Source of the DNA: Planctomycetota bacterium
GTDB taxonomy: Bacteria > Planctomycetota > UBA11346
Direction of reading: 5' to 3'
Length of the DNA: 64,000 nucleotides
Assembly: GCA_014193115.1 (NCBI GenBank)
Contig: BJHQ01000005.1
Span: 264,598-328,597 of the forward strand
In this document: one piece after another, positions 6,665 to 38,240 of the stretch
Position numbering within the stretch: position 1 is the stretch's first letter
Layout of the letters: the number at the start of each line of letters is the position of its first letter
Translations under genes and position numbers: made by a program
Notes under the pieces: generated by a model
The model's database searches: none
Told to the model about the DNA's origin: nothing
The model's input: only the letters and a program-made list of their open reading frames with translations

Positions 6665-6814
6665 TGCAGACAACCCTGGACCGGTGCAGAGGAGTACAAG
6701 CACCATGCCTCGTCTCCACTGGTCGCATGCCGGCAGGCGAGCCGCACCCGAGGACCTCGGAAACGCCGTCGTTGCCAACGGCCGTCTCTCGCGCCAACAC
6801 AAGGCCAAAAAAAC

Positions 6815-7102
6815 ATGACCGATCTGACCGCATCCCTTCGCGTCGTGCTGCTGACGATCGTGCTCGCAGTTTTTCTGACGACCGGTGCGGCAGAACCGCT
6901 CCCGGCTCCCGCCCAACCCATCCGCTTCGATATCCAACTCGGCCCCGCCCAGTTCCCGGCCGGCAAGCCCAAGGCGGGTGCACCTCAGCCCGCCGTCCTC
7001 GGAGGTTACATCGAAGTGTGGTCGGCTCTGTGGGCACGAGTCGTTCAGCATGACTTCCGCGCCCATCTGCATCTAAAACTCCATGCCGGAGGGATACTAT
7101 GA
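6815..7102 (+). pseudogene. 5' fragment of a type A paralog (signal peptide plus start of the N-terminal domain); still open, and overlaps the next start by ATGA
   Basis: MTDLTASLRVVLLTIVLAVFLTTGAAEPLPAPAQPIRFDIQLGPAQFPAGKPKAGAPQPAVLGGYIE matches IRFDIQLGPAQFPAGKPKAGAFQPAVLGGYIEGG of the gene at 10526. About 100 nt (6917-7015) nearly identical to ~10619-10717, then unrelated sequence. Confidence 0.8.
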
Positions 7103-10100: not shown

Positions 10101-10485
10101 CAGCGGCAGTCTGGCCACCGACGTGCGCTGGATCGGCTTCATGGACAACAACGCCAGCGATGAGGCCAAGACCAAGGAATGGAAGACCGGCACCCTGGAT
10201 TGGCTGGCCTATTGGAAACTCGGCGGCCCCGGCACCGGACGCGGCAACGAATACGAACCCGGCTTCCGGCCCCTGCCTTGGCCCGAGCACACCAGGATCC
10301 CCGGCAAGGACGACAAGTCCACCGGCCAGCTCGAATATAGCACCACGTCAAAGCCAGTGACCCCAGGAACCTACCGGATCGTCTTCGCCAGCCGACGCAT
10401 CGGCGATCTGGTCGCCGGCACGGCCACGGTGGAAACACCGGATGGCAAAAAGCAGGTCAGCCAGTGTTTCGGCAGTGTCGAATGA
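7099..10485 (+). CDS. Type A large secreted protein of uncharacterised family, copy A1 (divergent)
   Basis: RBS ggaggg before ATG at 7099; signal peptide MKTTLALILTTGILTCLSPLAAA. Helical region with RLYRLQQPSGSW and LAEDIMRYLEDQFITWD; C-terminal tail GTATVETPDGKKQVSQCFGSVE. Confidence 0.8.
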   Translation: MKTTLALILTTGILTCLSPLAAADLPQVDRSKPFHIDLWMGVPSKDALAKIGIDGSKNKLPSDPSSGWTFPWFIGAVQVGTEIRQPYALPYESWYTPHNQLQENDGNCPYAFFNFRQAKEDLQAFSCTITDAKISGNARVDLGGTQALSVAWEGTISGNSIRGKATMSLAEDRVLERPLVGVLRPTEPLDLRNAVYQIRFKGQVLVFEVRDGKAGQGSGRPWDPIGRPVAFGRLLPVDASQLTVTALPPEVRGVSVALAGIVQVDGKPLEIPTTVVLANGLAVGQATRGKMPGVEVQAYPLTDPVAARWRDWMGAIHAEGKPVDPALVQQAQDEAATIPALPAPSPATTFTHQHLEGRFIYAPWLPLSATAGAVKYRIELTPSHPPHSKPLVLEVAAAQSVDLRPVWAGMAPGNYALAITALDAGGAAIGTAQRSKLIKKVPFGSHPLTVIPDPIAMDLALRFPRYLADHQYAFHTLFREIDAAGENAVISKTIASICHSPWHLLTRWGTPAEQVRGRVLADYFTKVLQWDADQPLGIQQGYKAMYFGAAQDWGRAVLDDFAATKAEDRLALVRTAFDRLYRLQQPSGSWALMWDRTPWPKWSGAFTMWNTAWLDHNGAAYALPFGRYRNLSGDHRYLDAELKAVRWVLRNSLRTGYWETQAQQGDSNYNRPTAHTMALDFLLYLLEQAPADQADSVLAEDIMRYLEDQFITWDRVPAVSGGTMTDNGVLRLAIVSLLLHQRTGKPMHLAKAEALFNAYMINRDPVSGLTDMRWNRYMSEVDDPVYALRYVELRRQVLAEPTSSAVLGTTPLTLTLDRAAAGSERVRLHLDSRDGKVVQAIATTPTWQTLDIPFTTVSRRHQQDGETLFHAVDASGLKVGPHGIEGSVSVALAAPGGTPVPTVFNLTAAPGQRTLVGTWSQGTATGRVAGEGLRPSVAKPKHLHLQIAQAVAGGESWQNWALLRTNFQDGTATGAVICNTNAGWRATTTACDLRLGTDGTISGSLATDVRWIGFMDNNASDEAKTKEWKTGTLDWLAYWKLGGPGTGRGNEYEPGFRPLPWPEHTRIPGKDDKSTGQLEYSTTSKPVTPGTYRIVFASRRIGDLVAGTATVETPDGKKQVSQCFGSVE

Positions 10486-10525: not shown

Positions 10526-13500
10526 ATGACCAAGTCCATCCACCTGGTCCTGCTGGCGGGTTTGCTCGTGGGAATTCATTCACTCAGTGCAGCGGAAACC
10601 CCGCTGGATACCTCGAAACCCATCCGCTTCGACATCCAACTCGGCCCCGCCCAGTTCCCGGCCGGAAAACCCAAGGCGGGTGCCTTTCAGCCCGCCGTCC
10701 TCGGAGGTTACATCGAAGGCGGCAAGGTCACCGGGGCCTATGCGCCAAACATGACCGCAGTCTATGCGGCCGGGCAATCGCCTGATGACAACTATTGGGA
10801 TCTCTGCCCGTACGGGCCGCGTGCACCGATCGAAGGCGAGGCCGCCTGGAGCAGCCGCATCCGCGAGGTTTCAGCGTCCATCGGCCCGGATGGTTTCCAT
10901 GGCACCTGGAGCGTCAGTTTCGGCAAGGGCGATCCGGCCAAGAGCCCGGCCATCACCCCTGAATTGAAGATCCGCATCAAGGCGCATGCGGGTGTGGTCG
11001 GCTATGTGGGCACGTATGAAGGCACGGTGGGCGATGCGGCGGTGCAGGGTCCCTGCGTGGTCCGCGCCCGCAATGTCGCCGCCGGTATGATTGATCCCGC
11101 CAATGCCTTTTACCAGATCATCGGTGGCGGCTTCCGGGTCTTCGTCGAGGTCCGCGCCGGCAAGCCGGTGCAGGCCTGGGCGGTCGCCAATGGCGTGGGC
11201 AATCAGGGTTGGGTCTACCGGCGTCCGGACGCACCGGCGGCTGCCACCCGATTGTCCCCGGCCGATGCCACGGTGCTCACCATCGCCATTGCTGATGAAG
11301 GTCTGGCCGGAACGGCCGCCACCTTGCATGGCACCATCACCATCGCCCCGTCCACCACCCTCAAACTGAATGAAGTGGTCGTCAGTGGCGCCGGAAAAAT
11401 GCGGGTTTCCGGTAAGGATTCCACGGTCGAGGCGGTGCGCAGTTATCCGCTCAACGATCCGCAGATGGCTCGCTGTCTGGATCTGCTCAAGGAGACGCAT
11501 CGTGGCACCAAACCAGTCCCCGAGGCCCTGCTGGCCCAGGTCCGGCAGGAATCCGTGCGCGACGATGTCCAACCGGCGCCCAGCGAGGCGATGCGTTATA
11601 CCCACCGCCTTTGGAAATCGAGCAGTTTCATCTATGCGCCCTGGTTCGACTTCGAAACCGTGCCTGGCGCGGTGAAGTATCGCTTCGCCATCCACACCTC
11701 GAACGTCCACAACCAATTAGTTGAACCGCCGGTCATCAGTTTCGAGGCCGCTTCACCACGCGCCTCGTTGGCTCCGATCTGGGACAAAATGCCGGTCGCG
11801 GACGGTCCACGGGCGTTTCTGTCGCTCAAGGTGACCGGCCTGGATGCCGCCGGCAAGCCGGTTGGTGAACCGCAGTCCCGTGGCATCCAACGCCGGTCAC
11901 CCTTCAACCCCGAAATGATCGTCACCCCCGACGCAAAAGTGCTGATGGAACTGGCCCTGCGCCAACCACGCTTCCTGTTTGATCAGTATCATTCCCATCT
12001 GTATCTGACGGAAGCCGTGCGTGCGGCGGGCAACGGCGTTCAACCATTGGGCTACGGTCCCAGCCACTGGCATAACACGCAGCAATGGCTGGCCATGGAG
12101 GAGACCGACCCCGGGCGTCGCATCCAGCAGTTGCGCCTGCTGGATACCTTCAACAAGCAGCGCCTGCTCGACGTCAATGGCGCCTTCAAGACCCCGTACC
12201 ATTACAACGCCGTCGTCAGTGGCGTCGTGCAGGAGACCGGTCGCAACTATCTCAATGCCCTCGATATCCAGTTCGATGCCGAGGTGGTCGACCGGTTGCG
12301 GTTGTGGCTCCGGTATTTCGGTCGCTTGCAGCAACCCAGCGGCTCGTGGTGCATCTCGGAGCGGGCCGCGCTTGGCTGCTCTGGCGGGTATAGCCTGTGG
12401 GGCAGCCGGCACCTGGAGAATACCAGTGCGCCGTGGCTGCCTTTTATGGCGCGGCTGCGCCGGTTCGATGACCAAATCGAAACCCGCTCCCTCGCCCGCG
12501 CCATCGAGGAGCGAGCGTCATCGTGGGTTCGCAACAATACCCTGCGCACCGGTTTCGGCGAACAGATGCATCAGCAGACCGATCCCACCGACATGGCGCA
12601 TTCGGCCCAGAACCAGATCGAATACGTGCTCTACGTCCTCCGGCACGCACCGCCATCGCAACGCGATTTGGTCATGGCCAGCGACCTGATGCGCCGCATC
12701 GAAGATCTCTTCATCACCTGGGATGCGCTGCCGTTGACCGGGGGCGGTGCTTTCACCTTCGGACCATCGCTGCCTGCCGTCGAGGCGCTGTGCCTGCTGG
12801 AACTCTACACCCTGGATGGCGACCCAGCGCTGCTCGCCAAGAGTGAGGCCTTGGCCGCATCGTACCTGCAACGCGCTGATCCCTGGAACGGAAGCGGGGC
12901 CGATCCGATGACCGGCGGTTTCAGTTTATCCTACAACCGATTCCTGCAAGAAACCGATGACCCGGAATGGATCGTGCGCTGGGTGCAACTCCATCGCGCT
13001 CTCACCAAGGCTCCGCCTGCCGCCATCCCGGAACGTCATCTCACCCTCACCTGCGATCGGCTCATCGACGGCGTCGATCGCGTGGTTCTCGACCTGGCCA
13101 TCGCCGACGGCAAGATCACCCAGGCCCTGGCCCGCACTCCGACCTGGGATGGACCAGGAGCGAACTTTCATCAGCCCGGACGCCTGCACACCCGCCCCGG
13201 AAAGAAGCTGTTCCACACCGTGGATGCCACTGGTCTCGCCATCACGCCGGACGGCATCAGCGGGCAAGTCATGCTGACTTTGCACGATCCGCAGGGTGGG
13301 GAGGCGCGCCGCCTGACCGTCGAAGTTACGGCGAAAAGACAGCATGTCCGCGGCTGGCTGGGAACCTGGAAGCAGGGTCCATCAGGAGGTCGGGTCGAAG
13401 GCCGTACCGTTGCCGACGCGCCAGCCACCGGGGCTCAGCAGATCTTCGTTCAGGTGCATGAAGCCCTGGCTGGTGGCGAGGCATGGCAGACCTGGTCCCT

Positions 13501-13996
13501 GGCTGGCGCGGTACTGCCTGCGGTCGGCACGGCGACCGCCGCCACTTTCATCAATCCCAATGCCGGCTGGACCGCCCAGTCGACCGTGAGCGCGTGCTCC
13601 CTGAATGACGCGGATTTCTCCATGACCATGGATGCCGAGGTGACCTGGCAGGGCGTCGCGGAACTGGAGTACGTCAAGGGTGAATTGCCGAAGGCAACCG
13701 CCAACTATAAAACCACACCGGAATCCGCGCAGGCGCTGCTGGCCAATTGGGAGATTCCCGGCAAGGGATTTACCCTCGAATTCCCACTGCAACCAACCAA
13801 AGGGGATTGGGATCCGGCCAAGCCGGTGGCGTACACCACCACCTGGAAACCAGTCACTGCAGGCAAATACCGACTGAAATGTGATGGCAAACGCCTGGGC
13901 CATATTCTGTATGGCACGGCGATCGTCACCGGACCAGACGGCAAGGAAACTGCGCGGCAGTTTCTGGGTGATGTCGAATCAATCGTAAAACCGTGA
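10526..13996 (+). CDS. Type A large secreted protein of uncharacterised family, copy A2
   Basis: Signal peptide MTKSIHLVLLAGLLVGIHSLSAA; shared motifs VLGGYIEGGKVTGAYAP, GRLQQPSGSW, SDLMRRIEDLFITWDALP, ALARTPTWDGPG, INPNAGWTAQS, GPDGKETARQFLGDVES. Confidence 0.85.
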   Translation: MTKSIHLVLLAGLLVGIHSLSAAETPLDTSKPIRFDIQLGPAQFPAGKPKAGAFQPAVLGGYIEGGKVTGAYAPNMTAVYAAGQSPDDNYWDLCPYGPRAPIEGEAAWSSRIREVSASIGPDGFHGTWSVSFGKGDPAKSPAITPELKIRIKAHAGVVGYVGTYEGTVGDAAVQGPCVVRARNVAAGMIDPANAFYQIIGGGFRVFVEVRAGKPVQAWAVANGVGNQGWVYRRPDAPAAATRLSPADATVLTIAIADEGLAGTAATLHGTITIAPSTTLKLNEVVVSGAGKMRVSGKDSTVEAVRSYPLNDPQMARCLDLLKETHRGTKPVPEALLAQVRQESVRDDVQPAPSEAMRYTHRLWKSSSFIYAPWFDFETVPGAVKYRFAIHTSNVHNQLVEPPVISFEAASPRASLAPIWDKMPVADGPRAFLSLKVTGLDAAGKPVGEPQSRGIQRRSPFNPEMIVTPDAKVLMELALRQPRFLFDQYHSHLYLTEAVRAAGNGVQPLGYGPSHWHNTQQWLAMEETDPGRRIQQLRLLDTFNKQRLLDVNGAFKTPYHYNAVVSGVVQETGRNYLNALDIQFDAEVVDRLRLWLRYFGRLQQPSGSWCISERAALGCSGGYSLWGSRHLENTSAPWLPFMARLRRFDDQIETRSLARAIEERASSWVRNNTLRTGFGEQMHQQTDPTDMAHSAQNQIEYVLYVLRHAPPSQRDLVMASDLMRRIEDLFITWDALPLTGGGAFTFGPSLPAVEALCLLELYTLDGDPALLAKSEALAASYLQRADPWNGSGADPMTGGFSLSYNRFLQETDDPEWIVRWVQLHRALTKAPPAAIPERHLTLTCDRLIDGVDRVVLDLAIADGKITQALARTPTWDGPGANFHQPGRLHTRPGKKLFHTVDATGLAITPDGISGQVMLTLHDPQGGEARRLTVEVTAKRQHVRGWLGTWKQGPSGGRVEGRTVADAPATGAQQIFVQVHEALAGGEAWQTWSLAGAVLPAVGTATAATFINPNAGWTAQSTVSACSLNDADFSMTMDAEVTWQGVAELEYVKGELPKATANYKTTPESAQALLANWEIPGKGFTLEFPLQPTKGDWDPAKPVAYTTTWKPVTAGKYRLKCDGKRLGHILYGTAIVTGPDGKETARQFLGDVESIVKP

Positions 13997-14018: not shown

Positions 14019-14822
14019 ATGACCAAATTCACCCATTTCAATCTTGGTCGGGAGGCGCCTGATCAGCAACGTCCGCTGTGGGAACGCGGGGTCGGGGTGG
14101 ATGTACTCGGACGGCACGATGATCGGATCACGTATCGGTTGCTTGTACTGCCCATGTTGTTCCTCATTGAACCAGCCGTTGCGGCGCGGGTAGGTGCGTA
14201 TGCGGAAAATGGTGGCACGGTGTTGGCGACCTGGTTGACCGGCATCGTGGACGAGAACAACCTGTGCCATCCTGGTTGGCCAGGTGGCGGCCCGCGCGAA
14301 TTATTTGGGATCTGGGCGGAGGAAATCGATGTGCTCCACGAAAGCGACCGGCAGGAAATTCACTTCAAGCCCGATACTTCGTTGAACCTGACCGGCCGGC
14401 ATCGCGTCCGAGCTTACGCCGATCTTCAGCATCTTGAAGGCGCAACGGCAATAGCAGAATATGGAAGCGATTTCTATGCCGGAAGACCTGCCTTGACCTG
14501 TCATCGCGTCGGTCGGGGCGAAGCCTGGTATCTCGCCGCCGAACTCGACCACGTCGGACTCCATGCCGTGGTTGGCGCATTGGCCAAACGAACCGGGATC
14601 CGCCAACTCCTGCCCACGCCGCATCCCGGTCTCACGGTTCAATCGCGTACCGACGGCAAGACCGAATGGCTCTTCGTCCTGAACTTCTCGGGTCAAACCC
14701 ATTCCGTGGACCCGGGACCAGTGACCGATCAGGAAACCGATGCCACCATACATGAACCTGTGCTGGTCACAGGATGGGGATCCAAAGTGGTATTTCGGAA
14801 AGCGAGGAATGCACTGTCATGA
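14019..14822 (+). pseudogene. GH42 beta-galactosidase C-terminal fragment (trimerisation and C-terminal beta domains only; catalytic TIM barrel absent)
   Basis: YRLLVLPMLFLIEPAVAARVGAYAENGGTVLATWLTGIVDENNLCHPGWPGGGPRELFGIWAEEIDVL is typical of the GH42 trimerisation domain; LTVQSRTDGKTEWLFVLNFSGQT is typical of the C-terminal region. No catalytic-domain sequence upstream. Confidence 0.75.
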
Positions 14823-17800
14823 ATGCACAACCAGGGATCAAGAAAGAGAGCGTGGACATGCGCCGCGAACTCATCCTGCTGGCGTATCTCGCCAGCGCAT
14901 CCTTCACCCTGATGGCGGCAGATGCCCTCCCGCTAGGAAAACTTCCGCCGCCGAAACTGGATTATTCCAAACCGATACAGTTTGATGTGCAATTTTCCCC
15001 TGTGGTATTTCCTCAAGATACCCCGAAAGAGGTTCGCGGTAATCCATTGCCGGCCATCATTGGCGGCTACCTGGAGGGTGGGAAGGTGACCGGCGCCTAT
15101 GCGCCGGATATCAGCCACATCTATCATGCGGGTGCAAGTCCGGATCAGTTCGAGTGGGATCTGTGTCCGTATGGGCCCCGTCATGGTACAGGATCGCGTG
15201 ATGCTCAACGTGAAAAATTCACCAGTTCCACGCTGCGGATGACTGATGCTCAGGTTGAGGGAACCTGGCGTTTCAACTACATTTCCACCAAGGATTCCGG
15301 AAAAACAACCTCGCCAGTCTATGAAATCAGCATCCAGGCCACCGCGACCAGTTGCGGGTATGCCGGAACCTATACCGGAAAAATAGCGGATGTGCCGGTC
15401 AGTGGCGATTGCGTGCTGGCCGCTCATAACATCCCGGCGGGGGTGATCGATCCAGCCAATGCCATTTACCAGATTCTTGGCGGGAACTACGCTGTCTTGG
15501 TCGAAGTCCAAGCGGGAAAAGCAGTCCAGGCCTGGGCGGTTGCGGGGGTGGTTAGTGCTGAACGAACCTGGAGGTATCGTTACCCCGGTGATGCGGTGGC
15601 CGCCACGTTCCTGTTTCCTGCCGATGCATCCGGCATGAGCCTGAAAATCACCGATGAGGGTCTGGATGGCAAGGCGGTCACGCTGGGTGGTCAGATTACC
15701 ATCACGCCGGAACCCAAAACCGCTTCAAGGATGTTTGGACCAACGACCCTCGATCTCAGCGGAACGGTCATCAGCGGCGCAGGAAAAATACGAGGGAATG
15801 GCAAGGAATCCAAGGTGGAACAGGCCAGAAGTTATCCGCTCACCGATCCGTTGATGGCCCGCAGTCTGGCGCTGCTCAAGGAAACTCATCGCGGTAGCAA
15901 ACCAACCGCTCCAGAACTGCTGGCGCAGGCCGATCAGGAATCGCTGCGCACGGATGTCCAACCGGGTCCGAGCGAACAGACCCGTTACATGCAGCGCCTT
16001 TGGAATGGTGGCACGAGTGGGGAATATAACTACCATCGTTCCTACATTTATGCACCCTGGCTCGATCTTGAGGTTGTACCCAGCGCCGTCCGTTATCGGT
16101 TTGACTTGATCGACGCTTCGCATGAAAATACCGGAATCCGGCCCTTGATCGATTTCTTCGAAGCGTCCTCTCCACGGGTCTCGCTTCTTCCGATCTGGGC
16201 CAAGGTGCCCAAGAACCTTGGTCGGAACCCCATCAGTTCACTTCGTGTCACTGCTTTCGATGCTGATGGTAAAGCGCTGGGAAAACCGCAGGAATGCGGT
16301 ATCACTCGTAGGCCGGCTTTTTCCCAGGATCAGATCGTGACCCCTGATCCCAAGGTGCTGATGGAACTAGCGATGCGCCAACCATACCATCTGACCACGC
16401 GATATTATTCACACCTGTATCTGACCGAGGCGGTACTGGCAGCCAAGAACGGGGTGAAGCCCCTGAGTTATGAATCTCCGCATCACCATTTGCCACAGAC
16501 CCTGATGGTCGAGCATGAGGATAATCCGGTCCAACGGGATCAGTACATGCGGTTGTTGAATACCTATGTGGATCGACGAATGAAGGAACAGAATGAACCC
16601 TACTTCAAGCTGCCCTACCACTACAACGTCGGCCTGAATGGCGTGGTCCAGGAAACCGGGCGAAATTTCCTGAACGTCCTGGATCTTCAGCCGAATACCG
16701 AATTATTGGATCGTATGCGTCTGTGGACTCGCTTTTTTTCGCGCATGCAGCAACCCAGTGGTTCATGGACGATTTCCTATCGAGGTATGTTGGGGTGCAC
16801 TGGCGGCTATTCCCTTGGTGGCAGTTTTTTCCTGGATCAACCGAGTACACCCTGGTTGCCATTTCTGGCCCGAATGCGCCAGCATGACAATGATCCGACC
16901 TTTCGCGCCATGGAACGCGCCATCGAGGAAAAGGCGGCGTCCTGGGTTTTGAACAATACGCTTCGTACTGGTTTTTCGGAAAACGTGCAGCAGCAGACCC
17001 TCAGCAACGACAATGGCCACACGGTGCCCAACCAGATTGAGTATGTGTTATATGTGCTGCGCCACGCACCGCCCGTCCAGCGCGATGTCGTCATGGCCAC
17101 CGATCTCATGCGTCGGATCGAGGATCTCTTCATTTCCTGGGAGGCGCACGCGAAAACGAGAGGAGGGAATTTCACCTTCGAGCGTTCGCTCTATCCGATC
17201 GAAGCCCTTTGCTTTCTGGAATTGTATGCGCTGACCGGTGATCCGTTGATGCGGGCCAAGAGTGAAGCCCTGGTCAGCACCTACTTGCAAGACAGCGATC
17301 CCTGGAATGGCAGCAATGGTCTTTCCGGATTGACGAGTAAAATGAATTATGACCGATTCATCCAAGAAACTGACGATCCCGACTGGATCGTGCGTTGGGT
17401 GCATCGTGACCGTGAACTTCGCGCCACCCCGCCCTCTGCCGCACCCGAGCAACACCTGACGGTAACCCTGGATCAACTGATCGATGGCATCGACCGGGTT
17501 GTGCTGGATTTGGCCCTGGCCGATGGCAGGGTGACCCAGGCCCTGGCGCGCACCCCAACCTGGGATGGACCTGGAATCAATTTCTATCAACCCGGCACTG
17601 TCCACACCCGTCCTGGCAAGGCTTTCTTCCACAGCGTGGATGCATCCGGCCTGAAGCTCAGCGCCGAAGGACTCAGTGGTACGGTGAAACTCACCCTAAA
17701 ACCGCCCCAAAGCGATACCTTGATCTCCATGATCGCTGAAATCAGCGCCAAACGCCACGCTCTACGCGGCTGGCGTGGAACCTGGAAACAAGATAATAAT

Positions 17801-18418
17801 CAGGGACGGGTCGAAGGCGTCACCCTGGTCGATGCGGTTGTCAAAGGCCCGCAACAGATTTTTGTCAAAGTCAACGACGCCCTGAGCGGCGGCGAAGCCT
17901 GGCAAAACTGGACTCTGGCCGGCGCGGTCCTCCCAAGCACAGGAAGTGCAACCGGCGCGACCCTCATCAACCCCAATGCCGGTTGGACCGCTCAAGCCAC
18001 GGGTCTCAAGGATTGCATCCTGAACGGCGACACCTTTACCATGTCCATGGATGGCGAAGTCACCTGGCACGGTGTCGCCGAGCGGATCCCAAAGGACGAA
18101 ACACAGACAACCTACACCTACAAGACCACCCCAGAATCCAATCAGGCGCTCTTGGCCCATTGGGAACTTTCCATCAACAAAAATAACAGCTCCCTGTACT
18201 GCCCATTCCTCAAACCAGGGACCGGAGATTTATCCGCAGACGGAAAGCTGATCTACCAGACCGATTCCAAACCCGTCACCCCCGGCAAATACCGATTGAA
18301 ACTAGATGGCAAACGCCTGGGCAATATTCTATTTGGCATGGCCACCATCACCGGCCCGGACGGCAGGGAATCCGTCCGACAGTTTCTGGGCGATGTGGAA
18401 AGCATCGGTAAACCATGA
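14819..18418 (+). CDS. Type A large secreted protein of uncharacterised family, copy A3
   Basis: Start at 14819 (ATGA overlap with preceding ORF) or 14858 (MRRELILLAYLASASFTLMAAD signal peptide). Highly similar to A4 over full length (GKLPPPKLDYSKPIQFDVQF, FFSRMQQPSGSW, SENVQQQTLSNDNGHT, RQFLGDVESIGKP). Confidence 0.85.
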   Translation: MNAQPGIKKESVDMRRELILLAYLASASFTLMAADALPLGKLPPPKLDYSKPIQFDVQFSPVVFPQDTPKEVRGNPLPAIIGGYLEGGKVTGAYAPDISHIYHAGASPDQFEWDLCPYGPRHGTGSRDAQREKFTSSTLRMTDAQVEGTWRFNYISTKDSGKTTSPVYEISIQATATSCGYAGTYTGKIADVPVSGDCVLAAHNIPAGVIDPANAIYQILGGNYAVLVEVQAGKAVQAWAVAGVVSAERTWRYRYPGDAVAATFLFPADASGMSLKITDEGLDGKAVTLGGQITITPEPKTASRMFGPTTLDLSGTVISGAGKIRGNGKESKVEQARSYPLTDPLMARSLALLKETHRGSKPTAPELLAQADQESLRTDVQPGPSEQTRYMQRLWNGGTSGEYNYHRSYIYAPWLDLEVVPSAVRYRFDLIDASHENTGIRPLIDFFEASSPRVSLLPIWAKVPKNLGRNPISSLRVTAFDADGKALGKPQECGITRRPAFSQDQIVTPDPKVLMELAMRQPYHLTTRYYSHLYLTEAVLAAKNGVKPLSYESPHHHLPQTLMVEHEDNPVQRDQYMRLLNTYVDRRMKEQNEPYFKLPYHYNVGLNGVVQETGRNFLNVLDLQPNTELLDRMRLWTRFFSRMQQPSGSWTISYRGMLGCTGGYSLGGSFFLDQPSTPWLPFLARMRQHDNDPTFRAMERAIEEKAASWVLNNTLRTGFSENVQQQTLSNDNGHTVPNQIEYVLYVLRHAPPVQRDVVMATDLMRRIEDLFISWEAHAKTRGGNFTFERSLYPIEALCFLELYALTGDPLMRAKSEALVSTYLQDSDPWNGSNGLSGLTSKMNYDRFIQETDDPDWIVRWVHRDRELRATPPSAAPEQHLTVTLDQLIDGIDRVVLDLALADGRVTQALARTPTWDGPGINFYQPGTVHTRPGKAFFHSVDASGLKLSAEGLSGTVKLTLKPPQSDTLISMIAEISAKRHALRGWRGTWKQDNNQGRVEGVTLVDAVVKGPQQIFVKVNDALSGGEAWQNWTLAGAVLPSTGSATGATLINPNAGWTAQATGLKDCILNGDTFTMSMDGEVTWHGVAERIPKDETQTTYTYKTTPESNQALLAHWELSINKNNSSLYCPFLKPGTGDLSADGKLIYQTDSKPVTPGKYRLKLDGKRLGNILFGMATITGPDGRESVRQFLGDVESIGKP

Positions 18419-25708: not shown

Positions 25709-26104
25709 ATGCGCAACCATCGTATCAGCGATGACAATCCAATGATTCACTGTTTACACCCGCATCGGTCACGATCCCTGGTGGTGGACTGCAAGCCTCT
25801 GACTCTGGATCCGGTCGAGATAAGACCGAATGGCTGGGTGGCCAAGGAGACCGAGGACAACAAAACTTGGTATGGCCTTGGTGGCATTCGTACCCGTGCC
25901 TATCACCACACCGGTCCGGTCGCCAAACACTGGAAGGAATGGATGACGGCGACCTATACGGGTACGCAGACGCTTTCGTCCGAACTGAGGCAACAGGTGG
26001 CCCGGGAGACTGCGGAACTTCGGCGACGTGCTCGCGGGGACGGTTGCCGTGAAAGCCCGGATGGCAAAGAGGTCGTGTGCCAGTGTTTCGGAAGCCTTGA
26101 ATGA
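25709..26104 (+). pseudogene. Internally deleted, frameshifted type A remnant (resembles A1)
   Basis: IRTRAYHHTGPVAKHWKEWM resembles A1 VEVQAYPLTDPVAARWRDWM; the end SPDGKEVVCQCFGSLE resembles A1 TPDGKKQVSQCFGSVE. The preceding GDVLAGTVAV (A1: GDLVAGTATV) is in another frame. The helical core is missing. Confidence 0.75.
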
Positions 26105-26139
26105 ATAATCCGTCAATGATCACCACCAAGGAGCTTCTC

Positions 26140-29100
26140 ATGATCAAACCCATCATCTTCCTGACTGGCCTGCTCGGCGCATTCCTGCCCCTGATGGCGG
26201 CAGACTCCGCACCGCTGGGAAAACTCCCGCCACCAAAACTGGATTATTCCAAACCGATCCAGTTTGATGTGCAATTCGCTCCTGCGACCTTCCCCAAGGA
26301 TGCCCCGAAGGAGGTCCGCAACAATCCCATGCCGGCCATTATCGGCGGGTATCTGGAAGGTGGGAAAGTTACCGGTGCCTATGCGCCGGTTATGAGTCAT
26401 GTTTATCATGCTGGTTTAAGTCCGGATCAATACGAGTGGGATCTGTGTCCCTATGGTCCCCGTCCCAGTGAAGGGCAACCAGAAAAATTCAACAGTGCCA
26501 CGCTGCGGTTGACGGATACTCAGGTCGAGGGTACCTGGAGTTTTCACTACATTTCCGCCAAGGATCCCAGCCAAACAACTTCACCTGTCTATGAACTCAG
26601 CATCAAGGCCACCGCAAATGGTTGCGGATATGCCGGAACTTATACAGGGAAAATCGCGGATGTGCCGGTCAGTGGCGACTGCGTTCTGGCCGCCCACAAC
26701 ATTCCGGCGGGGATGATCGATCCGGCCAATGCTTTTTACCAGATTATTGGTGGTAATTATGATGTTATTGTTGAAGTCCAAGCGGGCAAAGCGGTCCAGG
26801 CCTGGGCGGTTGCAGGGGTGATTGGTGCCCACGGGTGGGTGTATCGTCAAACGAATGATTCGGTGGCTGCCACCTTTCTTTTTCCTGCCGATGCGTCGGG
26901 CATGACCCTGATAATCACCGACGAGGGTCTGGATGGCAAAGCCGTCACGCTGGGCGGTCAAATCACCATCACGCCGGATCCGAAAATTGCGTCGAAGATG
27001 TTCGGACCAATGTCGCTTGATCTCAGCGGTACCGTCATCAGTGGCGCAGGAAAATTGCGTGGGAAAGCCAAAGAATCCAAGATCGTGCAGGCCAGAAATT
27101 ATCCGCTCACCGATTCCCTGATGGCCCGGAGCCTGGCCCTTCTCAAGGAAAGCTTTCGTGGCTGCAAACCAACCGCGCCAGAACTACTGGCCCAGGCCGA
27201 ACAGGAATCGCTGCGCACGGATGTTCAACCGGCCCCGAGCGAACAGACCCGTTATATGCAACGTCTTTGGAAGTATGGCGCAGATTCCTACTCTTGTTCC
27301 TACATCTATGCTCCCTGGCTCGATCTTGATGTTGTCCCCAACGCTGTCCGGTATCGATTCGAATTGATCGACGCAACCATCCAGAACCGGCCAGTGATCG
27401 ACTCATTCGAGGCGTCCTCGCCCCGGGCCTCGCTCAGTCCTTTCTGGGCAAAGGTGCCCAAGAACCCTGGAAAGGTTTTTGATCGCAACCCCCTCAGTTC
27501 GCTGCGCGTCACCGCTCTGGATGCTGAAGGGAAAGCGCTGGGAAAACCGCAGGAATGCGGTATCACCCGCCGGCCGGCTTTTGCCCAGGATCAGATCGTG
27601 ACCCCTGATCCCAAGGTGCTGATGGAACTGGCGCTGCGCCAAGCATACCATTTGACGAATCGTTATTATTCCCACCTGTATCTGACCGAGGCGGTATTGG
27701 CGGCCAAGAATGGGGTAAAACCACTGGAGTATTACTCTCCGCATCACCATTATCCACAGACTTTGATGGTTCAGCAGGAGGAAAATCCAGTTCGCCGGGA
27801 TCAGTACATGCGGCTGTTGAACACCTATGTAGAACAACGGAACAAGGAGCAATTCGGTTTCTTCAAGACGCCGTACCACTACAACGTTGCCCTGGGTGGC
27901 GTGGCCCAGGAAACCGGACGCAATCTTCTGAACGTCCTGGATCTGCAACCAAACTCCGAAATACTGGATCGCCTTCGCCTGTGGACACGTTTCTTTGCTC
28001 GCCTGCAGCAACCCAGCGGTTCGTGGACGATTTCGCATCGGGACATGCTCGGGTGCATCGGCGCTTATGCCCTCAGTGGATCTTTCTTTTTGGATCAACC
28101 GAGCACGCCCTGGTTGCCATTTCTGGCCCGTCTGCGCCAGCACGACCACGATCCGACCTTTCGCGCTCTGGAGCGTGGTCTTGAGGAAAAAGCCGTGTCC
28201 TGGGTCTGTAACAACATGCTGCGCACCGGTTTTTCGGAGAACGTACAACAGCAGACCCTCAGCAACGATAACGGTCACACGGCAGTCAATCAAATCGAAT
28301 ATGCATTGTACGTACTGCGCCATGCCCCGCCCGCCCAACGTGATGTGGTCATGGCCACCGATCTCATGCGCCGGATCGAGGATCTCTTCATCACCTGGGA
28401 TACACATCCTCTGACCAGGGGAATGAATTTAACCTTTGACCGTTCGTTGTATGCGGTTGAAGCCCTTTGCTTCCTGGAATTGTATGCCTTGACCGGTGAT
28501 CAGTTGATGCGGACCAAGAGTGAGGCCCTGGTCAGCACCTATTTGCAGGACAGCGATCCGTGGCACGGTAGCAAAGGTGGATTCTTGAGCAAAACCGGCT
28601 ATGATCGATTCCTACAGGAAACAGACGATCCCGACTGGATCGTGCGCTGGGTGGAGCGTGACCGCGAACTGCGCACCACACCGATTGCTGCCGTGCCCGA
28701 AAAACACCTGACGGTAACCCTGGATCAATTGATCGATGGAATCGACCGGGTGGTGATCGATCTGGCCCTGTCTGATGGCAAGGTGACCCAGGCACTGGCG
28801 CGCACCCCGACCTGGGATGGTCCCGGGATCAATTTTTATCAACCCGGCACCGTCCACACCCGTCTTGGCAAGGCTTTCTATCACAGCGTGGACGCGTCCG
28901 GTCTGAAACTGAGCGCCGAAGGGCTCAGTGGCCTGGTGAAACTTACCCTGAAACCGCCCCAAGGCGAGCAATTGATCTCTCTGACAGCTGAAATCAGCGC
29001 CAAGCGACATGCCCTGCGCGGCTGGCGCGGAACCTGGAAACAGGACAATAATCAGGGCCGGGTCGAAGGCGTCACCCTGGTCGATGCCGTTGTCAAAGGT

Positions 29101-29685
29101 CCGCAGCAGATCTTCGTCAAAGTGAACGAGGCCCTGAGCGGTGGAGAAGCCTGGCAGAACTGGGCCTTGGCCGGGGCAGTCCTCTCAAGCACAGGAAGTG
29201 CAACCGGCGCGACCCTCATCAATCCGAACGCTGGCTGGACCGCCCAGTCCACGGGCCTGAATGACTGCGCTCTCAACGGTGATACGTTCACCATGACCCT
29301 GGATAGCGAGGTCACCTGGCATGGCGTCGCCGAGCGCACCCCGCCAGACAACTACCAACGGTCTCTTTACAAGACCACCCCGGAATCCAAGGAGGCGCTC
29401 TTGGCGCACTGGGAGATCCCCGTCAATGGAACTCCTCCATACAACAAGGGAGAAGTTTCTCTGAGTTGCCGATTCCTCAAAGCCGGAACCGGTGATTTCC
29501 CCGCCGACGGAAAACTGATCTACCAGACCGATTCCAAACCCATCGTCCCCGGAAAATACCGACTGAAACTTGAGGGCAAACGCCTGGGCAACATTCTCTA
29601 CGGTAAGGCCACCATCACCGGACCAGACGGCAAGGAAACTGCCCGGCAGTTTCTGGGTGATGTGGAGGCGGTCGGAAAATCTTGA
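26140..29685 (+). CDS. Type A large secreted protein of uncharacterised family, copy A4
   Basis: RBS aaggag; MIKPIIFLTGLLGAFLPLMAAD signal peptide (upstream in-frame ATG at 26101 overlaps the previous stop). Near-duplicate of A3. Confidence 0.85.
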   Translation: MIKPIIFLTGLLGAFLPLMAADSAPLGKLPPPKLDYSKPIQFDVQFAPATFPKDAPKEVRNNPMPAIIGGYLEGGKVTGAYAPVMSHVYHAGLSPDQYEWDLCPYGPRPSEGQPEKFNSATLRLTDTQVEGTWSFHYISAKDPSQTTSPVYELSIKATANGCGYAGTYTGKIADVPVSGDCVLAAHNIPAGMIDPANAFYQIIGGNYDVIVEVQAGKAVQAWAVAGVIGAHGWVYRQTNDSVAATFLFPADASGMTLIITDEGLDGKAVTLGGQITITPDPKIASKMFGPMSLDLSGTVISGAGKLRGKAKESKIVQARNYPLTDSLMARSLALLKESFRGCKPTAPELLAQAEQESLRTDVQPAPSEQTRYMQRLWKYGADSYSCSYIYAPWLDLDVVPNAVRYRFELIDATIQNRPVIDSFEASSPRASLSPFWAKVPKNPGKVFDRNPLSSLRVTALDAEGKALGKPQECGITRRPAFAQDQIVTPDPKVLMELALRQAYHLTNRYYSHLYLTEAVLAAKNGVKPLEYYSPHHHYPQTLMVQQEENPVRRDQYMRLLNTYVEQRNKEQFGFFKTPYHYNVALGGVAQETGRNLLNVLDLQPNSEILDRLRLWTRFFARLQQPSGSWTISHRDMLGCIGAYALSGSFFLDQPSTPWLPFLARLRQHDHDPTFRALERGLEEKAVSWVCNNMLRTGFSENVQQQTLSNDNGHTAVNQIEYALYVLRHAPPAQRDVVMATDLMRRIEDLFITWDTHPLTRGMNLTFDRSLYAVEALCFLELYALTGDQLMRTKSEALVSTYLQDSDPWHGSKGGFLSKTGYDRFLQETDDPDWIVRWVERDRELRTTPIAAVPEKHLTVTLDQLIDGIDRVVIDLALSDGKVTQALARTPTWDGPGINFYQPGTVHTRLGKAFYHSVDASGLKLSAEGLSGLVKLTLKPPQGEQLISLTAEISAKRHALRGWRGTWKQDNNQGRVEGVTLVDAVVKGPQQIFVKVNEALSGGEAWQNWALAGAVLSSTGSATGATLINPNAGWTAQSTGLNDCALNGDTFTMTLDSEVTWHGVAERTPPDNYQRSLYKTTPESKEALLAHWEIPVNGTPPYNKGEVSLSCRFLKAGTGDFPADGKLIYQTDSKPIVPGKYRLKLEGKRLGNILYGKATITGPDGKETARQFLGDVEAVGKS

Positions 29686-29689
29686 TCGC

Positions 29690-29865
29690 CAGCGCGGTAC
29701 GAGGGTGGCCTGGGATCAAGCGACGCCAGGCTTCGTCGTCCATTTGGGACAATAGAGTGGCCGTTGCAGACAACACTGGCCAGGTGCACGGGAGTACAAG
29801 GATTATGCCCGTCTCAACTGGTCGATTGTCGGCACCGCTCCGGCAGGTGAGCCGCCCCCGATCTG
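29690..29865. repeat. Degraded duplicate of the AraC regulator 5' end and its upstream region (cf. ~6590-6755)
   Basis: catttgggacaatagagtggccgttgcagacaacactggccaggtgcacgggagtacaag..ctcaactggtcg versus cgtttgggacaatatcgtggccattgcagacaaccctggaccggtgcagaggagtacaag..ctccactggtcg. The AraC start codon position is changed (ATG to ACG on the - strand). Confidence 0.8.
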
Positions 29866-29991
29866 CTGCGAACGAAGGAGAATGAATCCCTTGGACGCTC
29901 TCGGTACGCTTGCGATGCGCTCAATACCACCGTCCTCCGCCATCCTGGCTGGGGCGAATCGCGATCACCTCCGCTTTAGGATAGGTGCCCC

Positions 29992-31386
29992 ATGACCACC
30001 ACCCCGATCATCCTTGAGAACGGCCAAGAATGGAAAATCCTCGAATCAGCAACTGCTTTTTCCACGGATAAATACAAAGATCTGATTGAGGACAGCCATG
30101 CCCGCATCGATCAGCGGCGGCGGCGCTGGTTGGCCCTGCGGCTGAGCGACCGGGACGGCAAAGCCCTTGCCCATCGGACCGTGCGCCTGCGGCAGTTGCG
30201 CAGTGATTTTCTCTGGGGATTTTGCGGTGCCGGAGTGATGGACGCCTGTCACGAACCGCAAAGACTCGAAAATGATGTGGTCAGACGCAACCTGCTGCAC
30301 CTGGGTCGCCTGTTCAACGCGGTGAATCTGTTGAACTATTGGCAGGAGTGGTCTTGGAAGGAGACGCAAAAAGGCGAAGAGTTCATGGGGTACCAGAACT
30401 ACGACACCCTTGACCGGGCGGTGCAGTGGGCCTGTGGCCATGGTCTGGTGGCCAAGTGCCATCCGCTGTGGTGGGGCGTCCCCAAGGCCATCCCCGCTTG
30501 GATGGACCGTTTTGATGCGAAGAAACGCTCCATGTTCCGTGAGGTCCGTCTGCGTCAGATCGTCAACCGGTTCAAGGGACGCGTCAGTGTTTATGACGCA
30601 GTCAACGAGGCCATCTGGGAACCGACCCTGGCCAAGACCGCCACCCGCCACTGGCCTCACAACACACCGATCCCCGAGTTGGCACAGGACCTCGCCGAAG
30701 TCATGGCCATCGTTCGTGATGAGGATCCAAATGCGACGATGGTCATCAATGATTACGGCCAATGGGTCGGCGATACGACCAAGATTCCGGTTGCCTGCAG
30801 CGATGGCACCTTTATCAGCAATCAGGACCAGGCCCAGCGTTACCGGGACCTGATGATGGCCCTCAAGGATCTGGGTGCTGCCCCCGATGCCATGGGTTTT
30901 CAGGGATTTTCAGCCATCGGGAAACTGGAACAGCACGTGGCCACGTATGATTTCCTGGCCAAGACCGGCCTGCCCATCCACGTCACCGAATTCCATGCCG
31001 GAGGAGCCCATGCTGCAAACTTGGTGAAGGCCGGTGTGCCCCGACCTGAAATCATCGACCGGATCGCCGAATATGCCGATGCCTCGATGGTTTTGGCTTT
31101 CGCCCATCCGGCTCTTGAGGCATTCTTCTTCTGGTATGACCAGGACTATCTGTTCGATGGACGCGGTCTGCCCAGCGCCTGGTACAACCGGATCTACCAG
31201 CGCATCCACAAAGACTGGACCACCGATGTGGTTATGACCACTGACGCGGATGGACTCCTGCGTACTCGCGCCTTTACCGGCAGTTATCGCCTGTCCTTCG
31301 AAGAGCCAGGCGTATCGCCCACCGGAATCAATCTCAGCATCCCGGCCGCCAGTCGCGGGGAAATCGCGATGCAGGTCATCATATGA
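29992..31386 (+). CDS. Glycoside hydrolase family 10 (endo-beta-1,4-xylanase-like), no evident signal peptide
   Basis: GLVAKCHPLWWGVPKAIPAWM, VYDAVNEAIWEP (acid/base Glu), GLPIHVTEFHAGG (nucleophile Glu). Confidence 0.85.
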   Translation: MTTTPIILENGQEWKILESATAFSTDKYKDLIEDSHARIDQRRRRWLALRLSDRDGKALAHRTVRLRQLRSDFLWGFCGAGVMDACHEPQRLENDVVRRNLLHLGRLFNAVNLLNYWQEWSWKETQKGEEFMGYQNYDTLDRAVQWACGHGLVAKCHPLWWGVPKAIPAWMDRFDAKKRSMFREVRLRQIVNRFKGRVSVYDAVNEAIWEPTLAKTATRHWPHNTPIPELAQDLAEVMAIVRDEDPNATMVINDYGQWVGDTTKIPVACSDGTFISNQDQAQRYRDLMMALKDLGAAPDAMGFQGFSAIGKLEQHVATYDFLAKTGLPIHVTEFHAGGAHAANLVKAGVPRPEIIDRIAEYADASMVLAFAHPALEAFFFWYDQDYLFDGRGLPSAWYNRIYQRIHKDWTTDVVMTTDADGLLRTRAFTGSYRLSFEEPGVSPTGINLSIPAASRGEIAMQVII

Positions 31387-34500: not shown

Positions 34501-34612
34501 TCCGATCATCGACCTCGATGCCGGCCTGATGCGCGACGGCCTGATCGCCACCGACGGCCGGCTGTATGCGGCCTGCTCCGATGGTTCCGTGCGCTGCTTC
34601 CATGATCGCTGA
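31538..34612 (+). CDS. Secreted PQQ-like beta-propeller protein with N-terminal degenerate methyltransferase-like segment, copy 1
   Basis: Start at 31538 (RBS caggag) or 31511. N-terminus contains ALPRLPYGDRIANLVVCDADALGGKAPTQAEVQRVLAPGGVLRW; propeller repeats IVARDASNGTRLWRQRYP, VLGLDVGDGRRRWAVQLGAGLDTPPT, LAATDGALIWRTRL. Confidence 0.8.
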   Translation: MCCQPVTDRLASFPPAPSWPHGAASVWGRRLAVFLAVLSVAVAADPALAGLTIDRGVALSVPGSKTTIELASSGRFVVHALVVDEAARASLAAQLAAAESSAGIVQSDALPRLPYGDRIANLVVCDADALGGKAPTQAEVQRVLAPGGVLRWHQGGTWTTIAASATASGIWPSFDGGRGSMASTDDPLITLPLAARWLDGPVIGQTPAGVDIWCSVVNGGRYVQVTNIDEANVHAPARQRPLWIVARDASNGTRLWRQRYPTDLSAQKALPWGGYIAASPRCIFAFAGSDQVAAFDGATGAEIRRFALGGPRRIPGHLVWQGDRLLAQTTAGWSAFAEDGTPAWSIVTKDLWPGWGAAMITHLADHQVLVLQEGDRMRAFNLADGTERWSVAMSAPGDRGVRTWQLQALSGGSVAVRTQGELTAYSLVDGLKRWTVAATGNLPFTGRPDTYAWNGGFARAGKKFDAVTGADLGGAPNASVDRCTLPLLTSTFHISSHSSHVGSADPKQRLPGYAALRLSCNSANAVGSGLIFGIASDCMCNASHLRGITAHGSAPAALIQADPQTPRPTVRGAGKPAPAASSAPAAASGKEWPMFRQNIQRSAGLDAAPLRSPAQLWSVAASPSLVPGPVAVSRAAGGQAGIRGLTCAEGLVCVADAGHQRVLGLDVGDGRRRWAVQLGAGLDTPPTIHAGRVLFGALDGWVWCLAATDGALIWRTRLAPAEDFLPAYGQVASRWPVVGAVTVADGLVLASVGRSTAVDGGVLLAALDLDTGAVRWIRPINPVGGRESRSFNDVLIAGGRGLRFLGQPATPVPAPAAQEKESPSDTLVPAVEGLANFVRNDQDAALHGYTWAPMLYGGIRGRLLAWRDQRIFGFARHSYAWINNSTTQLKDPLAVFMAPADLVSSAASNLPAKNAPADYGPPTAWSRPLGATSDRLQACLVVGDTAWAAWTVAPAASGAADAAAAAAPAAVRETGRIASWKLADGTPGPIIDLDAGLMRDGLIATDGRLYAACSDGSVRCFHDR

Positions 34613-34745
34613 ACCAGACCAGGCGAGCATCCAAAGTATTCACCAGGCATGTCAGTGCCTGCATCAGCATCACCGCTTGACCTCGGAGCCGCCATCGGAG
34701 CGGCCAGAGTTCCAACATGCCAAGCACAATCACCAGAAGATAACC

Positions 34746-37700
34746 ATGATTAGGTCCATCCAGATTATCCTGCTGACGACTCTCGTCGGCCTATCATGCA
34801 CATTGGCGGCTGCAGACGCCGCCAGCACTCCGCCGTCGCCAAGACTGGATTTGACCAAACCGGTTATCTTCGATGTCCAATTCGCTCCGGCGACGATTCC
34901 AAAGGATGCTCCGAACGAGGTTCGCAGCAATCCCATGCCGCTGATCATCGGCGGCTATCTGGAAGGCGGCAAGGTCACCGGGGCCTATGCACCGGATATC
35001 AGTTATGTGTATTTTCCTGGCGGAAGTCCGGATGAGGTCGCATGGGCGCTGTATCCCTATGGCCCATGTCGGGAAACGGGGAATCGTGGTGGACGTTATG
35101 CACAACAAGAGAAGTTCGCTCGTGCATCCCTGCGATTGAACGGGAATCAGGCTGAGGGGGCCTGGACCTTTCGTTTCGTATCCAGCAAGGATCCCAGCAA
35201 GGCGCTCTCTCCAGATTATGCCCTGAGTATCAAGGCTGTCGTGAAGGGCAGCGGATTTGCCGGAACCTATTCGGGGAAGATTGCTGACTATCCGGTCAGC
35301 GGCGAGTGCGTCCTGTTCGCCCGCAATGTTCCGGCGGGGATGATCGATCCCCTCAATGCGTTCTACCAGATCATCGCCAGCAATTACCGAGTAGTGGTGG
35401 AAGTCCGGGCGGGCAAGGCGGTCCAGGCCCTGGCAATAGCCAGCGGCAATGACGCACATGCCACCGCTGTGCATCCCGCCGATGCGTCAGGCATGACATT
35501 CACGCCGATGGATCAGGGCCTCGACGGGACTGCGGTGACGCTGGGCGGACAGATCATAGTCACGCCATCGGTTTCAGCAGGTGCCAAGGCGATCCCCCCG
35601 GTCAGCATTTCCCTCGACGGCACGGTCATCAGTGGCGCCGGGAAGCTTCAGGTGAAATCCACGGTCAATTCCGCGCGCAATTACCCGCTGGGCGAACCCT
35701 TGATGGCCAAGAGCTTCGATGTGCTGAAGGCGAGTTTCCGCGGGGCAAAACCAGTTTCACCAGAACTTTTGGCGCAGGCCGAGGCGGAGTCTCAGTGGAA
35801 CGTTCAGCCGGCCCCAAGCGAGTCGACGCGTTATTCCCATCGTCTGTGGCGCACCACGAGTTTCATCTATGCCCCTTGGCTGGATTTCGATGCGGTGCCC
35901 AATGCCGTGCGCTACCGCTATACCATCGATCCGGCAGAACCGAGCAAGGACGTGAAAACCGCCAGTTTCGAGTCCCTGTCGCCCAAGGCGTCGCTCGCTC
36001 CGGTGTGGAAGGATCTTCCCACCAATACGGGGCTCAGACTGCAAGTGACCGCCCTTGATGCCCAAGGTGCGCCCATCGGCAAACCCCAGGAAAAGCTGAT
36101 CACGAAACGCGCCCCCTTCGGTCCTGAGATGGCGGTGACCCCTGAGGCCAGGGTGCTCATGGATCTGGCCATGCGCCAACCCTATCACCTGACCGAACGC
36201 CTCCATTCCCACCTGTACCTGACCGAGGCGGTGATCGCCGCAAATACCTCGGTCAAACCGATGGAGTATCACAATGCCCATTTTCATTTCTCACAGCAAC
36301 TGATGGCTGAACAGGAGCAGGATCAGGCGGGGCGGGATCAGTACCTGCGTCTCCTGGACACCTTCGTTCAGAGACGCCTGGAGGAAACCTTCGGGGAATT
36401 CAAGATCCCGTACCACTACAATGTGGTCCTGAGCGGCGTGGTGCAGGAAAACGGCCGCAATTTCCTCAATGCCTATGAGCAACTCCCGAATGCAACCGTA
36501 CTGGATCGTTTCCGGCTTTGGGTGCGTTACTTCGCCCGTTTGCAGCAACCGAGCGGTTCTTGGACCATTTCCTCGCGTGCGGCATTCAGTAGTACCGGCG
36601 GGTTCAGTCTGTGGGGAAACCGTTTTCTGGATGCAACCAGCATTCCGTGGCCGCCGTTTCTCGCGCGCCTGCGCCAGATCGACTCTGATCCTGGCACGCG
36701 TGCGCTCGAACGTGCCATCGAGGAACGTGCCATCGCCTGGTTTTCCAACAACACCTTGCGGACGGGTTTCGGAGAATTGCTGCACCAGCAGACCGATCCT
36801 GGTGATATGCAGCACTCCGCCGGGAACCAGATTGAATACGCCTTATATGTTCTGCTCCACGCGCCGCCTGCGCAGCGCGATGTGCTCATGGCCTCGGACC
36901 TCATGCGGCGCATCGAGGATCTCTTCATTTCTTGGCATGCTGTCCCCACCACCGGGGGTTGGAATCTGACCTTTGGCAATTCTCTGTATGCGGTCGAAGC
37001 CCTGTGCCTCATGGAATTATACGCCCTCACCGGCGATCCGCTGCTGCGCGCCAAGTCGGAGGCCCTGGCAACCGCCTATTTGCAACGGAATGATTCGTGG
37101 CATGGCACCAATCCCAATTCCAACGCCTATGTCGGTGGCGATGCCCTCGGCTATAATCGCTATATCCAAGAGCAGGATGATCCCGACTGGATCGTCCGCT
37201 GGGTGAAACGGGACCGTGAACTGCGCGCCTCACCGCCAGTCGCGATTGCTGAAAAGCATATCTCGTTGTCGTTGGATCGGCTGATCGATCAGACCGATCG
37301 GGTGGTTTTGGATCTCCAGGTGGCGGATGGCCAAGTGACCCAGGCCCTGGCGCGCACGCCGACCTGGGACGGCCCAGGAATCAATTTTTACCAGCCTGGC
37401 AGGCTTCACACCAGGTCCGGCAAGGCACTGTTTCATGGTGTTGATGCCTCGGCCTTGAAACTCAGCGCCCAGGGGCTGAGCGGCACGGTCAAACTTGCCC
37501 TCAAACCGCCACAGGGCGAAGAGATCCGCAATATCACCGTGGAAATCAACGCCAAACGCCACGCGCAACGCGCCTGGCGCGGCGCCTGGAAACTCGCCCA
37601 GGAAAATGGTCGGACCGAAGGCATCACCCTGCTTGATCCGGAGATCACCGGATCGCAGCAGGTCTTTGTCAAAGTCCACGAAGCCCTGGACGGTGGCGAA

Positions 37701-38240
37701 GCCTGGCAGACCTGGGCCTTGGCCGGTACCGTCATCCCGAAAAACGGCAGTGCGAGCGGTGCCATGCTGGTCAATCCCAATGCCGGTTGGACCGCCCAGA
37801 CTTCGGTGAGCGACTGTGAACTGAAATCCGAATCCTTCGCCATGACCATGAACACCGAAGTCGCCTGGCACGGTGTGGCAGAACGATCCAAGCCCGATGC
37901 CTGGCAGTGTTACACCTACAAGACCACTCCTGAAGCGAAGGAGGCGCTGCTGGGGTATTGGCAGATCCCCATCACCCGAGGCGGCGGCGGCGAAAAGAAC
38001 GGTGAGTTATACCTCAATCTCGGCTTCCCCCTGCGCCCGGAAATCGGGGATCTGCCACCAGATGGAAAACTGACCTATGAAACCAGCTGGAAACCGGTCA
38101 CCCCGGGAAAATACCTGTTGAAGCTCACAGGCCAGCGCCTGGGCAACATCCTGTACGGCACAGCCACCGTGACCGGGCCGGACGGAAAAAACGTTGTTCG
38201 TCAGTTCCTTGGCGATGCCGAAAGCATCGGAAAGCCGTGA
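34746..38240 (+). CDS. Type A large secreted protein of uncharacterised family, copy A5
   Basis: MIRSIQIILLTTLVGLSCTLAAAD signal peptide; IIGGYLEGGKVTGAYAP, FARLQQPSGSWTIS, ALARTPTWDGPGINFYQPG, NPNAGWTAQT, GPDGKNVVRQFLGDAESIGKP. Confidence 0.85.
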   Translation: MIRSIQIILLTTLVGLSCTLAAADAASTPPSPRLDLTKPVIFDVQFAPATIPKDAPNEVRSNPMPLIIGGYLEGGKVTGAYAPDISYVYFPGGSPDEVAWALYPYGPCRETGNRGGRYAQQEKFARASLRLNGNQAEGAWTFRFVSSKDPSKALSPDYALSIKAVVKGSGFAGTYSGKIADYPVSGECVLFARNVPAGMIDPLNAFYQIIASNYRVVVEVRAGKAVQALAIASGNDAHATAVHPADASGMTFTPMDQGLDGTAVTLGGQIIVTPSVSAGAKAIPPVSISLDGTVISGAGKLQVKSTVNSARNYPLGEPLMAKSFDVLKASFRGAKPVSPELLAQAEAESQWNVQPAPSESTRYSHRLWRTTSFIYAPWLDFDAVPNAVRYRYTIDPAEPSKDVKTASFESLSPKASLAPVWKDLPTNTGLRLQVTALDAQGAPIGKPQEKLITKRAPFGPEMAVTPEARVLMDLAMRQPYHLTERLHSHLYLTEAVIAANTSVKPMEYHNAHFHFSQQLMAEQEQDQAGRDQYLRLLDTFVQRRLEETFGEFKIPYHYNVVLSGVVQENGRNFLNAYEQLPNATVLDRFRLWVRYFARLQQPSGSWTISSRAAFSSTGGFSLWGNRFLDATSIPWPPFLARLRQIDSDPGTRALERAIEERAIAWFSNNTLRTGFGELLHQQTDPGDMQHSAGNQIEYALYVLLHAPPAQRDVLMASDLMRRIEDLFISWHAVPTTGGWNLTFGNSLYAVEALCLMELYALTGDPLLRAKSEALATAYLQRNDSWHGTNPNSNAYVGGDALGYNRYIQEQDDPDWIVRWVKRDRELRASPPVAIAEKHISLSLDRLIDQTDRVVLDLQVADGQVTQALARTPTWDGPGINFYQPGRLHTRSGKALFHGVDASALKLSAQGLSGTVKLALKPPQGEEIRNITVEINAKRHAQRAWRGAWKLAQENGRTEGITLLDPEITGSQQVFVKVHEALDGGEAWQTWALAGTVIPKNGSASGAMLVNPNAGWTAQTSVSDCELKSESFAMTMNTEVAWHGVAERSKPDAWQCYTYKTTPEAKEALLGYWQIPITRGGGGEKNGELYLNLGFPLRPEIGDLPPDGKLTYETSWKPVTPGKYLLKLTGQRLGNILYGTATVTGPDGKNVVRQFLGDAESIGKP

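Follow-up and report, generated by a model that had tools for sequence, protein, structure and literature searches.

A decayed copy of an AraC-type regulator start and its upstream DNA in the longest gap of a Planctomycetota operon

We analysed a 64,000-nucleotide stretch of a Planctomycetota genome (the window) and found that the longest intergenic gap of its long operon holds a 173-base copy of the start of an AraC-type regulator gene together with the DNA upstream of it. The copy begins 3 nt past the stop codon of the gene A4, about 23,000 bases from its source. Its regulator part is dead, and the fragment as a whole is probably a neutral, non-functional remnant of a segmental duplication, left in an array of paralogues in which short-patch copying is ongoing.

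The copied fragment, its source and its surroundings

BLAST and local alignment both place the fragment against the regulator region, with the two segments on the + strand (Table 1). The aligned sequences are identical at 134/162 ungapped columns, and the 14 gap columns form gaps of 2, 1 and 11 nt. The alignment score is 186 while shuffled gap sequences reach at most 53, and the BLAST E value within the window is 1e-31. The homology of the fragment to the parent AraC-type gene is therefore well above chance (82.7 % over 162 columns, E 1e-31). The original prediction that about 170 nt in the A4-GH10 gap copy the AraC start and its upstream DNA in the same orientation agrees with the pairwise alignment, and its limits of 29690-29865 are correct to a few bases.

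The genome (5.25 Mb, 36 contigs) contains exactly two copies according to both BLAST and a profile built from the two sequences, and the profile search adds only 13-bit matches at chance level. One of them, at C7:83107-83207, lies close to another A-family gene and might have been a third remnant; it was set aside because an equal 13-bit match (C16) sits in a long ORF unconnected to the cluster. With two copies only, the end of a mobile element or a dispersed repeat was ruled out. It is barely credible that the similarity reflects chance, an assembly artefact or a dispersed repeat element, given the score relative to shuffles, the copy number and a divergence of 17 %, which means that the fragment is not an assembly duplicate. 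Among 59 related genomes no copy was found, BLAST giving only matches of 20-32 nt and the profile none. One genome of the same genus is without the regulator and without the A family at the thresholds used.

Table 1. Coordinates of the copied fragment, its source and the neighbouring genes (window positions unless a locus is given)
Feature	Position	Strand or orientation	Basis or remark
Copied fragment	29689..29861		alignment to 6587-6751, 82.7 % identity without gaps; two copies in genome
Fragment, decayed AraC-type 5' end	29689-29764	antisense to operon	alignment
Fragment, copied upstream DNA	29765-29861	ahead of + strand GH10	alignment
Source segment	6587..6751		first ~26 AraC-type codons and 87 nt of divergent intergenic region
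AraC/XylS-type regulator gene, 300 aa	5762..6664, start possibly 6706	-	PF12833 E 1.5e-20
A4-GH10 gap, longest intergenic of operon, 306 nt	29686..29991	+	gap list
A4, paralogue ending 3 nt before fragment	26101..29685	+	A-family
GH10 gene downstream of fragment	29992..31386	+	PF00331 E 6.5e-14
A0, truncated, internally deleted A-family 5' end	6817..7038	+	next to source intergenic region, ahead of X
Short ORF, apparently internally deleted remnant of X-like (A-family) gene	25709..26104	+	
A-family members in window	7099-10485, 10526-13996, 14774-18418, 26101-29685, 34566-38240		
A-family members elsewhere in genome	L041:8479-12096; L042:8846-12397		

The operon (7099-46873) consists of + strand genes that overlap or are separated by at most 150 nt; only A4 and GH10 lie further apart, at 306 nt. 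The sizes of the gaps next to A2, P1, P2 and A5 depend on manual trimming of the starts of these genes. The cluster contains five A-family paralogues (X, A1, A2, A4 and A5), two B genes, PQQ-repeat genes, GH10 and GH95. The A family has seven members in the genome, and its proteins of about 1130-1220 aa mostly carry a signal-peptide-like start. The family has no Pfam match and A4 no NCBIfam match. Searches of public genome contigs with A4 or the A-family alignment as query found no relatives, and no member was found in 24 relatives or in 293 sampled genomes of the phylum. The structure model of A4 is too poor to rely on (mean pLDDT 50); it suggests strand-rich ends around a helical middle.

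Two further observations concern the cluster and the genome. The 267-aa ORF at 14019-14822 has the GH42 trimerisation and C-terminal domains without the GH42 catalytic domain and, judging from this domain content, represents a partial beta-galactosidase gene within the cluster. The 5.25 Mb genome is unusually rich in regulators, with 109 matches to the AraC-type HTH_18 domain.

State of the regulator part and of the copied control DNA

The regulator gene runs leftwards to 5762 from an ATG at 6664-6662 (minus strand) or from an alternative in-frame ATG at 6706-6704, 14 codons before it. In the copy the first of these reads ACG and the second ATA, and the roughly 26 codons present carry a 2-nt deletion that shifts the frame. 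The remaining 839 nt of the regulator are not duplicated anywhere in the window or genome, except for a 29-nt chance-like match. With both starts lost, the frame disrupted and the rest of the gene present only once, the regulator part is a dead fragment, as anticipated by the claims that the copied AraC start is mutated and the remainder of the regulator absent.

On one reading of the upstream part, the AraC-type regulator still binds the duplicated intergenic DNA, which initiates or enhances transcription of GH10 and the following genes. The upstream DNA was copied along with the start and sits ahead of GH10 on the + strand, in the orientation right for promoter capture and in the longest gap of the operon, and both copies retain two GACA-containing 12-mers at a spacing of 21 bp. 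We nevertheless consider this reading unlikely. The pair of 12-mers lacks statistical significance: in shuffles, the strongest repeat of this type in the source segment has a P of 0.13. The upstream DNA is not more conserved than the dead coding sequence (73/86 versus 61/76 identical bases, Fisher P 0.53), so the substitution rate does not differ between the two parts.

Mismatches are evenly spread along the fragment, a comparison of two sequences that has low power to see purifying selection. The longest identical run is 12 compared to a mean of 19.8 expected with randomly placed mismatches, and no window of 20, 30 or 38 columns is conserved beyond chance (P 0.95-0.99). The string ggagtacaag, highlighted in the original prediction, is indeed common to both segments as a run of 10 bases, but such a run is unremarkable and falls short of what chance would produce at the observed identity. 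A scan of 29600-30050 found neither a sigma-70 promoter-like site nor a terminator. The sigma-70 scan of the source region found no promoter-like site either, so the scan may simply not suit the host organism. The RNA folding of the fragment is ordinary, with no conserved structure (z -0.8 to +1.2). Taken together, the even mismatches, the ordinary folding and the lack of a promoter-like site or conserved block provide no positive support for the suggested duplicated operator or promoter.

Power simulation with two sequences indicates that a conserved block of 38 nt would be noticed in 56 % of cases and one of 20 nt almost never. Because the test has so little power, the copy may yet have a function. 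Any activity would be that of an additional binding or promoter region serving GH10 and the downstream genes. In the more specific form of this idea, a putative AraC-type operator would have outlived the decayed regulator copy, and the half of the operon led by GH10 would form a separate transcription unit under the one regulator, a scenario we hold to be rather doubtful.

Short + strand ORFs of 37 codons each are found upstream of A0 (6705-6818) and of GH10 (29882-29994), and their stop codons overlap the ATGA at which the following gene begins; they may be coupled leader ORFs or a product of chance. Conservation of the small + strand ORF at 6705-6818 (with AGGAG before the ATG) was considered and rejected, as a 1-nt deletion breaks it in the copy.

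Age and origin of the copy

Identity at fourfold-degenerate sites is 62 % for A2/A4, 59 % for P3/P4 and 43 % for A1/A4. The 83 % identity of the fragment is significantly higher than that of the A2/A4 fourfold sites (binomial P 1e-8), and its excess over the 62 % and 59 % of the two pairs suggests a separate, later copying event. Either the fragment is younger than the main tandem duplications of the array, as this comparison would suggest, or it has been conserved; an identity above that predicted by the tandem duplications also speaks for a working promoter.

Several shorter pieces of the cluster are shared between its genes. A 49-nt tract at the 3' end of A4 (29615-29663) matches A1 (13926-13974) with one mismatch, and X and A4 have 27 nt in common (8842-8868 and 28000-28026). 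The A0 piece at 6915-7016 is 94 % identical to 102 nt of A1 (10617-10718), A0 7016-7038 matches 10992-11014, and the 5' ends of A1 and B1 are related. The near-identical tracts of 49, 27 and 102 nt between otherwise distant paralogues look as expected for short-patch gene conversion. Given the 94 % identity of A0 and A1 and the single mismatch of the A1/A4 tract, the copying of short pieces seemingly continued after the fragment arose. The A1-like 3' end of A4 was also considered as a trace of the junction and rejected, its 48/49 identity being far above the 83 % of the fragment; the tract is thus probably a separate and younger event. On the other side of the copy, the right-hand junction is unreadable because nothing else in the genome matches 29862-29991 and the source side is a recent mosaic (the A0 piece). 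A tandem duplication of the whole regulator-to-A unit is possible.

The fragment could alternatively be what is left of a captured unit, GH10 having arrived with its own divergent AraC-type gene that later decayed. The fragment is divergent to GH10 just as the regulator is divergent to A0, and an AraC-type gene is divergent to an A-family gene on another contig (L042), so the divergent regulator-A pair occurs twice in the genome. No divergent regulator-GH10 pair was seen among the examined GH10 loci. At six loci from this and four related genomes, none of the tested neighbours of GH10 relatives is an AraC-type gene: Pfam identifies no AraC-type protein among those in L043, L045, L046, L047 and L048, and L044 has no ORF of at least 200 aa in the 715 nt upstream of GH10 before the contig end. 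In addition, 83 % DNA identity derives the fragment from the present regulator, whose nearest other relative in the genome has 31 % protein identity. These results make the capture of a second regulator-led unit improbable. Of the original prediction, the copy, its mutated start and the missing rest are supported, while the working operator or promoter and the captured unit are not.

Comparison with known systems and meaning of the copy

Partial or segmental gene duplication leaves pseudogene fragments in bacteria. The fragment resembles these in being a truncated 5' copy with lost starts, a frameshift and even drift, located near other remnants of its cluster. It differs in that the copied piece spans both the regulator start and its control region, and a leftover regulatory effect is therefore conceivable. 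Systems of the araC-araBAD type have an AraC-type regulator divergent to an operon, which is comparable to the AraC/XylS-type regulator divergent to a carbohydrate-active gene cluster described here, whereas the copied segment is without a significant half-site pair.

Promoter capture by tandem duplication is exemplified by citT in the E. coli long-term experiment (Blount et al. 2012, cited in PMC11111574). Both cases share a duplicated stretch of control DNA, here a putative one, that lies in the same orientation ahead of a different gene. Unlike citT, the present fragment is 17 % diverged and has no readable duplication junction beyond its left end. Our literature search returned general promoter-capture papers only.

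We infer the absence of a regulatory role, as well as the mechanism of copying. A stretch extending from within the AraC-type gene past its start and on into the divergent intergenic DNA would have been copied, either in a tandem duplication followed by loss or through short-patch recombination, would have landed directly behind the paralogue A4, and would then have drifted. The loss of both starts together with the 2-nt deletion, the even mismatches and the lack of a sigma-70 promoter-like site argue for such a neutral remnant, as do the other copied or decayed pieces of the cluster (A0, 25709-26104, the A1/A4 3' tract and the 27 nt of X/A4). Against it, the 83 % identity could also reflect constraint on a part of the copy, the fragment occupies the only long gap of the operon, a useful place for a promoter, and two sequences give little power.

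If the copy did work, it would represent natural promoter capture inside one operon, the existing regulator splitting a long cluster into separately controlled halves. If the fragment is a remnant, as we think probable, it records the growth of the cluster by the repeated copying of both short pieces and whole genes, the regulator region having been one of the donors.
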